Assembly: GCA_029213065.1 (NCBI GenBank)
Contig: JARGPH010000005.1
Coordinates: 1 to 38,424, forward strand
Length of the DNA: 38,424 nt
DNA from: Verrucomicrobiales bacterium
GTDB taxonomy: Bacteria > Verrucomicrobiota > Verrucomicrobiia > Verrucomicrobiales > DEV007
Direction: 5' to 3'
Below are positions 6,286 through 22,198 of this stretch, one piece after another. A model generated the notes under the pieces. It had not been told where the DNA came from and made no database searches. It saw only the letters and a program-made list of their open reading frames with translations. Within the stretch, counting starts at the first letter, position 1; each line of letters begins with the position of its first letter. The position numbers were made by a program, and so were the translations under genes.

Positions 6286-7518
6286 ATGCATATTCCTTCG
6301 CTCATCGAGAAAAAGCGGGACGGTGGCGTGCTCTCTGATGAGGAGATAGCGTATCTCGTCAATGGCTATACGAATGACGAGATGCCGCCCTATCAAATGG
6401 CCGCCTTTGCGATGGCTGTTTATTTTCAGGGGATGTCCTCCGCCGAAACAGCGGCGCTGACAAACGCGATGCTGGAATCGGGGGATGTTATGAAATACCC
6501 GGATCACGCGCCGCGAATTGTCGACAAGCATTCCACCGGCGGGGTGGGGGATAAAGTCTCGCTGGTGCTGGCGCCTTTGTTGGCATGTGATGATCTCTGG
6601 GTTCCCATGATTTCAGGACGCGGGCTCGGGATCACAGGAGGAACCCTCGACAAGCTCGAATCCATGCCCGGGTTCAGCATTGATGTTTCTCAGGAGAAAG
6701 CGCTCGAGCAGCTCGAGAAACTGGGTGTCGTCATGATGGGGCAAACCGCTTCGATTTGTTCTGCCGATAAAAAACTCTATGCACTTCGTGACGTCACTGC
6801 GACGGTCCCGAGCCGACCTTTGATTGTTGCCTCTATCATGTCAAAGAAGCTCGCTGAATCGCTCGATGCGCTCGTGCTCGATGTGAAATACGGTTCAGGG
6901 GCTTTTATGAAAACCCGCGACGAGGCGACGGAATTAGGAGAAGCGATGCGGGAAGTCGGAACCCGGATGGGCGTCGATACGCGGACTCTTTATCACCCGA
7001 TGGATGAGCCGATCGGTCATGCTGTGGGCAATGCCCTGGAGGTCATCGAGTCCATCGAAACCCTCTCGGGAGGCGGACCTGATGACTTGCGTCGGCTCGT
7101 TCTCGATCTCAGCGCCGAAGTGAGCACGGTGGATCGTTCGGTCCTGGAAACCTGGCTGGATGACGGGACCGCGTTGAAAAAGTTTTACGCACTGGTCGAG
7201 GCGCAGGGCGGGCGAGTCGAAGAGGTCGAGAAGCTCGGCGAGATTCATCGGGCCTCTGTGATTCGCGAAATACAAAGCCCGGACAGCGGGTCCATTTCCG
7301 GGGTGGATGCGGATACGGTGGGGCGCGCGAGTCTGGCGCTCGGAGCGGGGCGCGGAAAGTCGGATGACGTGATTGATCCTGCGGTTGGTTTCGATCAGAT
7401 CGTGAAGTGCGGAACGACCGTGGCGAGAGGCGATGTTATTGCCCGGGTGCATGCACAAAGTGATGCGGAGGCGGCAGAGGCGGAGTCACGGTTTTTGAAA
7501 GGAGTAAAAATCGTATGA
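6286..7518 (+). CDS. deoA: Thymidine/pyrimidine-nucleoside phosphorylase
   Basis: Catalyses reversible phosphorolysis of pyrimidine nucleosides to free base and (deoxy)ribose 1-phosphate in nucleoside salvage. The 410-residue product starts with the family's helical domain. It shows the phosphate-binding loop DKHSTGGVGDKVSL, the signature SGRGLGITGGTLDKLES, SADKKLYALRDVTATV with the base-contacting Arg and Ser-Lys region, and a C-terminal domain with AGRGKSDDVIDPAVG. ATG 6286 is chosen because GGAG lies four bases upstream; the adjacent TTG 6283 is too close to it. The stop overlaps the start of the lipoprotein gene by ATGA, so the two are translationally coupled. The product is slightly shorter than typical members (about 430-440). 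Confidence 0.9.
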   Translation: MHIPSLIEKKRDGGVLSDEEIAYLVNGYTNDEMPPYQMAAFAMAVYFQGMSSAETAALTNAMLESGDVMKYPDHAPRIVDKHSTGGVGDKVSLVLAPLLACDDLWVPMISGRGLGITGGTLDKLESMPGFSIDVSQEKALEQLEKLGVVMMGQTASICSADKKLYALRDVTATVPSRPLIVASIMSKKLAESLDALVLDVKYGSGAFMKTRDEATELGEAMREVGTRMGVDTRTLYHPMDEPIGHAVGNALEVIESIETLSGGGPDDLRRLVLDLSAEVSTVDRSVLETWLDDGTALKKFYALVEAQGGRVEEVEKLGEIHRASVIREIQSPDSGSISGVDADTVGRASLALGAGRGKSDDVIDPAVGFDQIVKCGTTVARGDVIARVHAQSDAEAAEAESRFLKGVKIV

Positions 7519-8270
7519 ACCGGTTTCCTGTTTTGTTATTGATTGCTGAGGTCGCGCTCCTCACCTCATGCAAGCGCCCCGAACCAACGCAGGTGGTTGT
7601 GAGGGAGGAACCTTCGGTGGAGGCGCTGGTCTCAACCGTTTTGAATGGCGGCGGCACCTTTAAAGACGTTCCCTTTGCCAGTTTGATCGAAACCTCGACG
7701 GGGAGGCATGTTCTCGCGATGCACCCCGAGGACCCCGCAGACGCGATGATTCTGGCAGGGCTGAAAGAGGCGTTGGACGCGGTTCTGGAGCGCTACAATC
7801 GTCCCGATTCTCCGACCAGTTCGGAACCTCGAATCAATGAGGTGAGTTCGTATTTTGAGAGGGCGATTCTGGAAGCGCTTGACCGGAATCCGGATTTTGA
7901 ATGCGACTACCCACGCACCGCCGACGGGAACTTGCAGCGTTCGGGGTATCCCGATTTGATGATCCGGCATTTGGAATCGGGGCGCGTTATCTACCTCGAT
8001 CCGAAGTTGGTCGCAGAGGGCTCGCTCGATTCGAGCCTGAGGACCTTCTACTTCACGCCGAAAACGAAGACGAACAAAGTACTCCACGACGCCAATCATC
8101 TCCTTGTCGGGATCGAGCACGACGGCAATACCGGAGCGTGGAAATTTCTGCGCTGGCACCTCGTTGATTTGACCCGGTTCAAGGTTCGGCTCAAAGCCGA
8201 GTTCCAGGCGAGCAACAAAGACCTCTACCTTCCCGAGCTGATTATCGAATCGGGTGATGCGGAGAAGTGA
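7515..8270 (+). CDS. Lipoprotein with a PD-(D/E)XK-like motif
   Basis: A 251-residue protein of unknown function. It opens with a short hydrophobic stretch and lipobox LTSC, making Cys19 the probable lipidation site. Residues 111-123 form a predicted helix with Glu115 and Glu120. A strand (FECDYPR) follows, then PD at 146-147 and Asp162-Pro-Lys164 (PDLMIRHL...VIYLDPKL). The order helix-Glu, strand, PD, 14 residues, DxK matches the core of the PD-(D/E)XK nuclease fold, but this is a motif reading only. The ATGA overlap with the phosphorylase gene implies co-expression with nucleoside salvage. Alternatives are a structural lipoprotein with chance residues or a non-nuclease member of the fold. 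Confidence 0.7.
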   Translation: MNRFPVLLLIAEVALLTSCKRPEPTQVVVREEPSVEALVSTVLNGGGTFKDVPFASLIETSTGRHVLAMHPEDPADAMILAGLKEALDAVLERYNRPDSPTSSEPRINEVSSYFERAILEALDRNPDFECDYPRTADGNLQRSGYPDLMIRHLESGRVIYLDPKLVAEGSLDSSLRTFYFTPKTKTNKVLHDANHLLVGIEHDGNTGAWKFLRWHLVDLTRFKVRLKAEFQASNKDLYLPELIIESGDAEK

Positions 8271-18922: not shown

Positions 18923-20257
18923 TCACCCGGGGCGTTTTCCGACCATTTCGCAAAGACGCTTCTTGAGGGCGTCGAGACCTTCGCCGGTCTGAGCGGAAAT
19001 CGGGAAAATCTCCTGCTTGGGAAAGCGATACTGGAGCGCGTTCACATACATCTCGGCCTCTTCGAGATCGGTCTTGTTCGCGACAATGAGCCATTCCCGT
19101 TCGCCCAGCTCCTCGTCGTAAAGACGAAGCTCTTTTCTCAGAATTTGAATGTCCGAGATCGGATCGCGCTGATCGACTGCCGCGGTATCGACTACGAAGA
19201 GGAATACGGAGCAACGGCTGATGTGACGCAGGAAGTCATGCCCGAGGCCGACGTTTTCGTGTGCGCCTTCGATCAGACCGGGAATATCCGCCACCGTGCA
19301 GCGCATGAACCCGGGGAAATCGACCACTCCCACCATTGGCTTGAGCGTCGTGAACGGGTAGGCAGCCACCTTCGGTGTCGCGTTTGAAATAGCAGTGAGG
19401 AGGGTGGATTTTCCGGCATTGGGAAATCCAACGAGTCCCACATCGGCGATCTGTCTGAGCTCAAGATAGTAATGACCCTCGGTGCCCTTCTCGCCCGGAG
19501 TGAACTCGATAGGGGCCTGATTGGTGTCGGTCCGGAAATTCCAGTTTCCCTTTCCGCCGGCGCCACCTTCGCAAAGCACGTATTTCTGCCCGACTTCGGT
19601 CAAATCGACGACGAACTCGCCATATTCGCTTTCGGGAACGTCATCGGTTTCTTCGCCGTCTTCGCTTTCGTCCTCGTCCTCGTCAAATTCATCCTCATCA
19701 AAAACGGTGTCGTCGTCTTCCACCATCATGGACTCTTCCGCCGCCGCTTCCTCTGCCGCGATTTCCCGTCCGAACTCAGTATCAGCGATCTCGCCCTGCA
19801 CGACCGTTTCGGTTTCGGCGTCGTTTTCATCTTCGAGACCCTCATCGCGATCCATCAGCACCATTTGGCCTTCCTCTTCAATGAATTCACCGGCCCAGTC
19901 TTTCGCGGTGTAATCCTCTTCGTAATCGAGGTCGCCCGGTTTGGGCTTCGGCTTGTTGGGTGTTGTCCGATAAACAATCGTTCCCGGTGGCACTTTGAGA
20001 ATGAGGTTTTTCCCGCCACGACCCGTTTTCCGCTGTCCCTTGCCATGAACACCGCGCTCGGCCTTGTAATTCGGCGTGTAGAAAAAGTTCCGCAGATTGT
20101 CGGTGTGCTGGTCGACAACGAGAATGACGTCGCCGCCGCGTCCGCCATCTCCGCCGTCGGGGCCGCCTTTAGGAACGTGGGCTTCACGGCGAAAGCTCAT
20201 ACAGCCGTTACCGCCGTCACCAGCTTTGGCAAAAATTTTGATGTGGTCGACAAACAT
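18923..20257 (-). CDS. obg: Obg-family GTPase with a large acidic insertion
   Basis: Essential ribosome-associated GTPase linked to 50S assembly, stress and chromosome events. The glycine-rich Obg fold begins at residue 1 (FAKAGDGGNGCMSFRRE, GGPDGGDGGRGG). The G domain has GFPNAGKS (277-284), DIPGLIEGAHE (324-334), NKTD (394-397) and SAQTGEG (421-427). Between VPPGTIVYR (about 97) and VVDLTEVGQ (about 216) lies an insertion of about 115 residues that is very rich in Asp and Glu. In typical Obg this is a short loop. The protein ends soon after the G domain, so the C-terminal OCT domain is missing. A DnaA-box array lies 57-102 bases upstream of the start. Confidence 0.93.
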   Translation of the reverse strand: MFVDHIKIFAKAGDGGNGCMSFRREAHVPKGGPDGGDGGRGGDVILVVDQHTDNLRNFFYTPNYKAERGVHGKGQRKTGRGGKNLILKVPPGTIVYRTTPNKPKPKPGDLDYEEDYTAKDWAGEFIEEEGQMVLMDRDEGLEDENDAETETVVQGEIADTEFGREIAAEEAAAEESMMVEDDDTVFDEDEFDEDEDESEDGEETDDVPESEYGEFVVDLTEVGQKYVLCEGGAGGKGNWNFRTDTNQAPIEFTPGEKGTEGHYYLELRQIADVGLVGFPNAGKSTLLTAISNATPKVAAYPFTTLKPMVGVVDFPGFMRCTVADIPGLIEGAHENVGLGHDFLRHISRCSVFLFVVDTAAVDQRDPISDIQILRKELRLYDEELGEREWLIVANKTDLEEAEMYVNALQYRFPKQEIFPISAQTGEGLDALKKRLCEMVGKRPG

Positions 20258-20314
20258 GAGATTGGGTGAGTTTAAAACTCCGGTAAAACGGGGAATGTCG
20301 GAGGTTTTTCAAAC

Positions 20315-20359
20315 TTATCCACAGGGTTTTTCACAGAGTTATTCACATTTTGTGAATAA
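20315..20359. promoter_or_regulatory. Array of four DnaA-type boxes at 12-bp spacing
   Basis: TTATCCACA (20315), TTTTTCACA (20327), TTATTCACA (20339) and the inverted TGTGAATAA (20351) all match the DnaA-box consensus TTWTNCACA, and their starts are exactly 12 bp apart. The last two form a 10-bp inverted repeat around TTT. The array lies between the divergent obg and sulfatase 2 genes, 57 bases from the obg start. It could be a DnaA-controlled promoter, a DnaA-titration site or part of an origin. No strongly AT-rich unwinding region and no dnaA or dnaN gene is in view. Confidence 0.75.
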
Positions 20360-20449
20360 CCGGCGAAATTTGTATCCGGTGTCTGATAGATACCAAGAAA
20401 AGTCCTGCCGCGACAAGACTTTTGGAGAGGAGCGGGGAAAGCTTACCTC

Positions 20450-22198
20450 ATGCATAATTACCTCTCGATTAAGTCATCATGGGGCTGCGGTATTCTCGCG
20501 GCATTAGTCTTTTTATTGATGCCCGGAGTGCTCCGTTCTGAAGATACCCGTCCGAACATCATCTACATCATGTCGGATGACCACGCCGCCCACGCCATCG
20601 GGGCCTACGGCGGTCGTCTCGCGGAATTGAACCCCACTCCGAACATCGACCGGCTCGCAAAAGAGGGAATGCTTTTTGAGAACGCCTTCTGCACCAACTC
20701 GATCTGCTCTCCGAGCCGTGCCTGTGTCATTACCGGTCAGTATGCGCACACGAATAAGGTGCACGATCTCTGGGGATCGATTGATAGCGAACGCCAGTTT
20801 TTGCCCATCGAGATGAAAAAAGCCGGCTACGAAACCGCGATGGTTGGCAAGTGGCATTTGAAAGAGGAACCCGGCGCCTTTGATTATTACAGCGTTCTTC
20901 CCGGGCAGGGCGATTATCACGATCCTTCGTTTCGGGTTCAGGGCGAAAAAGGCTGGCCGAACGATGTCGTGAAATTTGATGGCTACCATTCATCTGACGC
21001 TATCACCGAGATCACCCTCGAATGGCTGCAGGAAAAGCGGGAAGGGGAAAAGCCCTTTTTCCTGATGCATCATTACAAAGCACCGCATGATTACTTCGAG
21101 CACGCCGAGCGTTACAATGACTACCTGAAGGACATCGATATCCCCGAGCCGGAGAATCTCTGGCTGGAAAACCAGCCGAAGTTCGGCTCCATCGCAACAC
21201 TTGGATACGAGGGCGAATTGATTCCCCACATCGGAACCTCGATCGGAACCCGCAATCCGCGTCGTTCCTACGCCGGTGATCTTCCCTCACTTTTTCCGAA
21301 GGATTTTCCACCGAACTACGACCCGTCAAAGCTCACCGGTGAGGAAGTGAAACGCATTTCCTACAACGTCTATCTGAAAAACTACCTGCGTTGCGTCAAA
21401 GGAATCGATGACAACCTTGGCAAGCTTTTTGCCTATCTCGAAGAGTCGGATCTCATGGATAACACCGTGATCATCTACACCGGCGATCAGGGATTCATGC
21501 TCGGCGAGCACGACTATCAGGACAAACGCTGGATGTATGAAGAATCGATGAGAATGCCCTTCCTCGTTCGTTATCCGAAGACGATCAAAGCGGGGAGCCG
21601 CACCGACGCGATTGTTGAAAACGTCGACTACGCGCCGACGGTGCTCGCTTTGGCCGGCATTGAAACGCCTCACTACATGCAGGGAAAAAGCTTCAAAGGG
21701 ATTCTCGAATCAGGCACCGAACCCGAGGGGTGGAAGCAGGCGGCCTACTATCGTTACTGGATGCACATGGCGCACCACGACAATCCTGCCCATGTGGGTA
21801 TTCGCACGAAATCGCACAAGTTGATCTACTACTATGGATGTAACTACGGCGGCGGGTATCAGACGCCTCCGGCCTGGGAGCTCTACGACATGGTGAAGGA
21901 TCCGCAGGAAAACGTGAATCAGTATGACAACCCCGCGTATGCTGAGACCGTTAATCAACTCAAAGCCGAGCTCGCGCAGCTGCGTCAAACCGTTGGCGAT
22001 ACCGGTGAAGATTATCCCGCCGTCGAGAAAGTGGTTCAAGAGTTCTGGAACTATGACGGTGAAGACCAGGCCAGAGCGATCGAGATTTCGGCGCAGTTCA
22101 ATAGTGTGCGCGAAGCGGAACTGAAGGCCAAGGCGCTCAATGCCGGTGCCATGGTCGGAACGAAAGCGAAGAAGGAAGAGGATTCGAAGAAAAAATAA
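20450..22198 (+). CDS. Secreted S1-family sulfatase 2 (CSPSR type)
   Basis: A 582-residue sulfatase with an N-terminal signal or anchor segment (about 1-30). The first metal site is NIIYIMSDDHAAHAIGAYGG. Catalytic Cys86 is in SICSPSRACVITGQYAHTN. GKWHLK and YTGDQGFMLGEHDYQDKRW form the rest of the active site. The HTNKVHDL segment after the catalytic region resembles glucosamine-6-sulfatase-like and related carbohydrate sulfatases, but the exact substrate is unknown. A C-terminal extension of about 90 residues is rich in Lys, Glu and Ala and may be helical. The gene diverges from obg across the DnaA-box array. A GAGGAG lies too far upstream for an optimal Shine-Dalgarno. A terminator follows directly. 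Confidence 0.93.
   Translation: MHNYLSIKSSWGCGILAALVFLLMPGVLRSEDTRPNIIYIMSDDHAAHAIGAYGGRLAELNPTPNIDRLAKEGMLFENAFCTNSICSPSRACVITGQYAHTNKVHDLWGSIDSERQFLPIEMKKAGYETAMVGKWHLKEEPGAFDYYSVLPGQGDYHDPSFRVQGEKGWPNDVVKFDGYHSSDAITEITLEWLQEKREGEKPFFLMHHYKAPHDYFEHAERYNDYLKDIDIPEPENLWLENQPKFGSIATLGYEGELIPHIGTSIGTRNPRRSYAGDLPSLFPKDFPPNYDPSKLTGEEVKRISYNVYLKNYLRCVKGIDDNLGKLFAYLEESDLMDNTVIIYTGDQGFMLGEHDYQDKRWMYEESMRMPFLVRYPKTIKAGSRTDAIVENVDYAPTVLALAGIETPHYMQGKSFKGILESGTEPEGWKQAAYYRYWMHMAHHDNPAHVGIRTKSHKLIYYYGCNYGGGYQTPPAWELYDMVKDPQENVNQYDNPAYAETVNQLKAELAQLRQTVGDTGEDYPAVEKVVQEFWNYDGEDQARAIEISAQFNSVREAELKAKALNAGAMVGTKAKKEEDSKKK

Follow-up and report, generated by a model that had tools for sequence, protein, structure and literature searches.

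A phased DnaA-box array upstream of obg in a genus of Verrucomicrobiales probably serves as a DnaA-control site outside the chromosome origin

The stretch of DNA analysed here, hereafter the window, is the initial 38 kb of a 218-kb contig in a draft assembly of 5.9 Mb that is 96% complete (genome G000). It carries obg and a sulfatase gene, transcribed divergently from a short intergenic region in which a series of DnaA-type boxes is located. The features of the locus are as follows.

18923..20257, minus strand: obg, encoding the Obg/CgtA GTPase (PF01018 and PF01926 above the cut-off), with transcription directed away from the array
20258..20449: intergenic region of 192 bp between obg and the sulfatase gene, containing the array
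20305..20313, plus strand: weak DnaA-like site TTTTTCAAA, agreeing with 7 of 8 consensus positions and with its start 10 bp ahead of box 1
20315..20323, plus strand: DnaA box 1, TTATCCACA, fitting TTWTNCACA and kept in the closest relative (G022)
20327..20335, plus strand: DnaA box 2, TTTTTCACA, fitting TTWTNCACA and kept in G022
20339..20347, plus strand: DnaA box 3, TTATTCACA, the form common to the genus
20351..20359, minus strand: DnaA box 4, an inverted TTATTCACA, degenerate in G022 (TGTGATTAA)
20450..22198, plus strand: sulfatase gene (PF00884), the divergent neighbour in G000 and G022

The original prediction, made from the window alone, described three direct boxes and one inverted box with a spacing tighter than chance. 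Both parts held: the four boxes start exactly 12 bp apart, at 20315, 20327, 20339 and 20351, and none of 200 first-order Markov simulations of the window placed more than one box in a 45-bp stretch. TTWTNCACA matched the window five times against 1.39 expected (five matches were attained in one of 100 shuffles), and four of the five lie in the array. A pattern for the 12-bp tandem pair (TTWTNCACANNNTTWTNCACA) gave two overlapping matches, both at the array, and was found nowhere else in the 5.9-Mb assembly; the reversed-pattern control gave none.

Boxes 3 and 4 pair as a palindrome (arms of 10 bp, loop of 3 bases) in the centroid fold, and the fold of the 91 bases of DNA around it was beaten or equalled by two of 200 shuffles (z = -2.76). 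We rejected a terminator or RNA hairpin at 20339-20359, as the terminator scan gave only a site at 20484 and the inverted box occurs in just 7 of the 24 box-bearing regions described below. Apart from the array, we noticed that residues ~110-190 of Obg, between the N-terminal and GTPase domains, gave no alignment with the Obg of order-level relatives.

We compared 29 obg upstream regions. Genomes of the same genus supplied 18 of them, and the other 11 belong to named relatives whose rank is not stated. The genus set holds 23 genomes, among which G002, G003, G008, G012 and G018 have no usable obg upstream region. The named relatives come from 51 Obg loci, 47 of which were scanned (L178, L179, L187 and L203 were left out): 13 of the 47 are contigs of genomes already in the set, 11 joined the 29 and 23 are more distant. 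Judged by Obg, the close named relatives are metagenome-assembled or uncultured Verrucomicrobiales, several of them labelled Akkermansiaceae. The conservation upstream of obg on which the original prediction had hinged was borne out among these relatives. TTATTCACA is present in 24 of the 29 regions (16/18 from the genus and 8/11 from named relatives) and absent from those of G015, G017 (115 bp available), L167, L173 and L201. No 9-mer is more widespread than TTATTCACA and its one-base shift GTTATTCAC, each in 24 of 29 regions, and any two of the regions share at most 15% of their 16-mers. TTWTNCACA was found in the 700 bp scanned at none of the 23 more distant obg loci, and two outgroup obg loci from a whole-genome search (L025 and L030) each carry a single box-like 9-mer, located downstream of the obg start.

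A search independent of obg, covering 36 genomes, found the 12-bp tandem pair at 12 places. Nine are upstream of obg, one is beside the transporter gene described below at a contig end (G018) and two are in G015 away from obg; the reversed control gave one place. G036, the genome of L178, has boxes within the gap between obg and the transporter gene. When all TTATTCACA sites of 14 genomes were tallied by hand, 38 of 210 fell in the obg intergenic region, or 38 of 232 with G003 and G015 included; the 14-genome tally left out G003 (no obg locus), G015 (cluster elsewhere), G005, G006, G012, G019, G022, G037 and G038. All three sites of G021 (4.0 Mb) sit in the obg intergenic region, and the five sites of G014 (6.5 Mb) are divided among the obg gap (two), a DUF2851 gene (two) and the 5' side of rnc (one). 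The comparison of sequences suggests that the boxes upstream of obg have been selected, and that what is held there is the DNA.

The gene on the other side of the array is variable. An AI-2E-family transporter gene is opposite obg in 19 of the 23 close named loci as well as in G014, G009 and G001. The sulfatase gene has this position only in G000 and G022 among the genomes examined, and neither gene was found there in G019. For G000, G022 and G019 the best-matching transporter gene is on another contig, and no box was present in the 1.5 kb around it; as these relocated genes lack boxes in their loci, we rejected the reading of the array as a transporter promoter. G008 has the transporter gene without boxes and no true obg match, and at L167 and L173 obg and the transporter gene face each other across a short gap without boxes. 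In G015 the space between radC and a PSCyt2 gene holds two box pairs, separated by 293 bp, and the transporter gene is 5.4 kb away; its obg is on a separate contig beside the enolase gene, with no box. The presence of the cluster without obg in this one genome argues for the array being a stand-alone site, of which obg would remain the usual neighbour.

These neighbourhoods bear on the earlier proposal that the array controls obg or the sulfatase gene. The sulfatase part is weakened, as that neighbour was seen only in G000 and G022 among the genomes examined. The boxes of G015 being away from obg speaks against the obg part as well, which we nevertheless retain as the main rival to a stand-alone site, albeit a rather unlikely one: DnaA would act as a transcription factor, bound upstream of the obg promoter and tying the Obg level to the replication cycle. 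Boxes at DnaA-regulated promoters are located upstream of the gene, as they are here, and Obg has a link to replication. A promoter element would be expected where nine of the 12 tandem-pattern places of the 36 genomes are found, upstream of obg, and the distance between the obg start codon and the nearest direct box stays within 60-193 bp in every one of the 24 regions that carry boxes. However, unlike boxes of a regulated promoter, the cluster is found without obg in G015, and obg without the cluster in several genomes; at L167 and L173, for instance, the gene pair is unchanged but boxes are absent. Direct boxes also extend 327-372 bp past the first one, in the same orientation, in 13 of the 24 regions. 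A sigma-70 scan of 20150-20550 gave no promoter, which says little with 0.3 expected by chance.

Box number and span differ between regions, with direct boxes spanning 327-372 bp in 13 of 24 and 0-139 bp in the remainder. Of the 69 strong boxes, 40, in 23 regions, are preceded at 11 or 12 bp by a weak partner of the same orientation (at least 6 of 8 matches). The background rate of such partners is 1.1% per position; the z values for this comparison ignore the relatedness of the sequences. Nine of the 29 obg regions contain the exact 12-bp pair, and the weaker partner at 11-12 bp is commoner. Strong and weak boxes in one direction, with affinity judged by consensus match only, are an arrangement shared with datA of E. 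coli. datA requires IHF, which has a site between the boxes; the E. coli IHF consensus was found in only 2 of the 29 regions, isolated in both, and the native HU/IHF may have another specificity. The scarcity of this consensus counts against the reading that we favour below, as do the 5 of 29 obg regions without a box, the variable number and span of the boxes and the box-free transporter gene of G008.

Seven of the 24 box-bearing regions have an inverted TTATTCACA 12-57 bp after a direct box; the interval between the two starts is exactly 23 bp in five instances (G013, L160 twice, L162 and L165). We consider it improbable that the array is a DARS-like site, at which DnaA would be reactivated by nucleotide exchange at opposed boxes such as those at 20339 and 20351. 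The last two boxes in G000 do face each other, and the recurring 23-bp cases are in favour of such a site, but 17 of the 24 regions have no inverted TTATTCACA and box 4 is degenerate in G022. DARS1 and DARS2 of E. coli, so far as the available part of PMC5742627 describes them, also consist of boxes outside oriC, and an opposed pair in G000 or an opposed box in the seven regions would be the counterpart; unlike in DARS1 and DARS2, no conserved opposed core pair was found here. The recurrent part of the array is instead its same-direction boxes, the datA arrangement according to the same part of that source.

No box cluster was found in the dnaA loci of the genus, which have at most two scattered box-like 9-mers (G015). 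In G000 the likely oriC is not beside dnaA; it is flanked on contig C58 by rnc and a glycosyltransferase family 9 gene (L129 9000-9930). There, TTATTCACA is located just 3' of rnc, beside TCC-TAGTAGTAGAAG, a DnaA-trio tract; the motif is described in the available part of PMC8287927. A strict trio pattern matched C58 in G000 and not the obg site; as it matched none of the other 35 genomes, the pattern is not sensitive. Reading by eye gave trio-like tracts together with boxes or near-boxes at the rnc loci of G004, G005, G007, G011, G013, G014, G016, G020 and G036. A full-consensus box 3' of rnc was present at only 11 of the 19 scanned genus rnc loci, which is a further point against a datA- or DBC-like reading (DBCs being the DnaA-box clusters of B. 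subtilis). The GC skew turns from negative to positive at the rnc-linked locus of G000, whose contig ends ~5 kb further, and flips sharply in G011, from -0.067 to +0.125 between adjacent 10-kb bins; it is noisy in G007 and makes no clear switch in G014. Because boxes, DnaA-trios and skew flips occur there, the origin of the genus is most likely at rnc, on its 3' side.

Several other observations were made around these loci. The likely origin core, ~250 bp, is duplicated in G000 (C58:252201-252424 and 256337-256561; L129 9702-9925 and 13838-14062), the two copies being 4.1 kb apart and 96% identical, which points either to a duplication of oriC or to an artefact of assembly close to the end of the contig. 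In G023, a member of another family, the dnaA locus carries an opposed TTATTCACA pair with starts 10 bp apart (L057 706-724). An AT-rich stretch of G004 (C14; L149 ~6800-7550) with two TTATTCACA sites was unlike the other G004 stretches that we read, and may belong to a foreign or contaminating contig. The boxes of G037 at C15 are within masked, repeat-like sequence.

Since the same boxes occur at the likely oriC, DnaA is the likely reader of the obg boxes. PF00308 was matched in 18 of the 23 genomes of the genus, once in each, and with a single such gene per genome no Hda-like partner was seen in these 18. Domain IV of DnaA (G000, L072) matches five PDB DnaA sequences, including 1j1v, from E. 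coli. The recognition motif of the G000 protein is DHGT, as compared with DHTT in three aligned PDB chains, and this difference might alter the box preference. That difference leaves a slight chance that another DNA-binding protein reads the motif. Nevertheless, identical 9-mers stand directly beside DnaA-trios at the rnc-linked locus, making DnaA the simplest reader. The DnaA-type identity claimed for the boxes is upheld by that match with the likely oriC and by the repeated presence of boxes ahead of obg in the genus; the boxes look true.

A comparison of GC skew with the obg locus, which the original prediction had suggested, gave no lasting switch at obg in four genomes, binned at 10 kb across 119-218 kb (the whole 218-kb contig of G000, 119 kb of G011, and the first 200 kb of G007:C36, 299.5 kb, and of G004:C65, 250.6 kb). 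The G000 contig has a single negative 10-kb bin, near zero (-0.006), 130 kb from the obg site. The two 1-kb bins beside the obg site are negative as well (-0.083 and -0.045), which is too local for an origin. This outcome fits a site that is not oriC and possibly titrates DnaA. It is hardly credible that the array is or was the chromosome origin: its boxes are tandem and intergenic, the dnaA loci lack a box cluster and two 1-kb bins of negative skew adjoin it, but the skew makes no lasting switch in four genomes, the trio pattern has no match at the site and a better candidate is beside rnc.

The reading we favour, with moderate confidence, is that the obg array is a DnaA-binding cluster outside the origin, under selection and similar to datA or to the B. 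subtilis clusters, most likely helping to control how often the chromosome is copied. DnaA would bind the strong box or boxes and spread head-to-tail over the weaker boxes 11-12 bp upstream, and the resulting complex would reduce the DnaA available to oriC. This could be achieved by either of two routes: a) DnaA is held at the site, as in titration by the DnaA-box clusters of B. subtilis, or b) ATP hydrolysis is promoted in the head-to-tail oligomer, as at E. coli datA. The data at hand fit either route. As the site would double when the fork passes after initiation, it may help to prevent a second start.

DnaA-box clusters outside oriC are a known kind of element (available parts of PMC5295017, PMC5742627 and PMC12371093), and DnaA-control sites outside the origin have been described for E. 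coli, B. subtilis and Streptomyces in the available parts of PMC5295017 and PMC5742627. According to the part of the review PMC5295017 available, removal of all six DnaA-box clusters from B. subtilis leads to early initiation (Okumura 2012); the same part also states that the B. subtilis clusters play no significant role in replication initiation, a point against the reading favoured here. The obg array resembles these clusters in being a group of several close consensus boxes (four in 45 bp) outside oriC and away from the origin. It differs from them in belonging to another phylum with no sequence relation shown, and in that one cluster beside obg and one inside the DUF2851 gene recur in the genus. 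With datA the array has in common an intergenic position and same-direction strong and weak boxes, but it shows no consistent IHF consensus and its pairs are phased at 11-12 bp. The essential boxes of datA share one direction, suggesting head-to-tail DnaA contacts, in the part of PMC5742627 available.

The second place where boxes recur is the interior of the DUF2851 gene (PF11013, of unknown function), found in G000 at C26:12080-13618 (L128 9578-11119). A Lys-Leu-Phe-Thr stretch of the product is spelled AAG TTA TTC ACA, with rare codons, in 12 of the 17 intact genus copies. At this column 13 of the 17 copies have TTA and 12 have ACA, and every other column has fewer than 4 of 17 for either codon. 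None of the 12 aligned outgroup genes has the stretch. An opposed box is located 262-295 bp upstream of the codon-spelled box; among the 17 intact copies, 11 have both boxes, two have one (G011 and G012) and four have none there (G005, G008, G015 and G017). The boxes are invariant in seven aligned DUF2851 copies by construction, as these copies were chosen for holding both. The distance between the DUF2851 site and the rnc locus is 83 kb in G007, as compared with 32 kb in G036.

A DUF2851 match at 1e-20 was absent from G010, G013, G020, G021 and G022. Box positions were compared in four of these five genomes (G010, G013, G020 and G021): G013 and G020 keep both boxes, 263 and 260 bp apart, in DUF2851 stretches that are recognisable by tblastn and broken by stops; G010 and G021 have no such pair. 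The two decayed copies, noticed via their boxes, are 47% identical to each other.

It is possible, and we propose it tentatively, that the genus has two dedicated DnaA-control sites, namely the same-direction array at obg and the opposed pair, 260-295 bp apart, in DUF2851. The second site would dictate codons, and perhaps amino acids, of its host gene and could outlive it. The two could form an antagonistic pair, one datA-like and the other DARS-like, which would have evolved independently of the enterobacterial ones. None of the publications among the matches listed, so far as their available parts show, deals with clusters of DnaA boxes away from oriC in Verrucomicrobiota, with boxes linked to obg in that phylum or with DnaA boxes in DUF2851. 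The features that appear to be new are a pair of sites that recurs across a genus, the phasing of weak and strong boxes, and a site kept inside coding DNA. The DUF2851 site is a possible case of a DNA-binding site shaping a protein sequence, and the two-site system supplies precise sequences for testing. If true, a system of two sites kept by selection at the DNA level in Verrucomicrobiota would make it possible to ask whether bacteria lacking Hda generally rely on sites of this kind against over-initiation.
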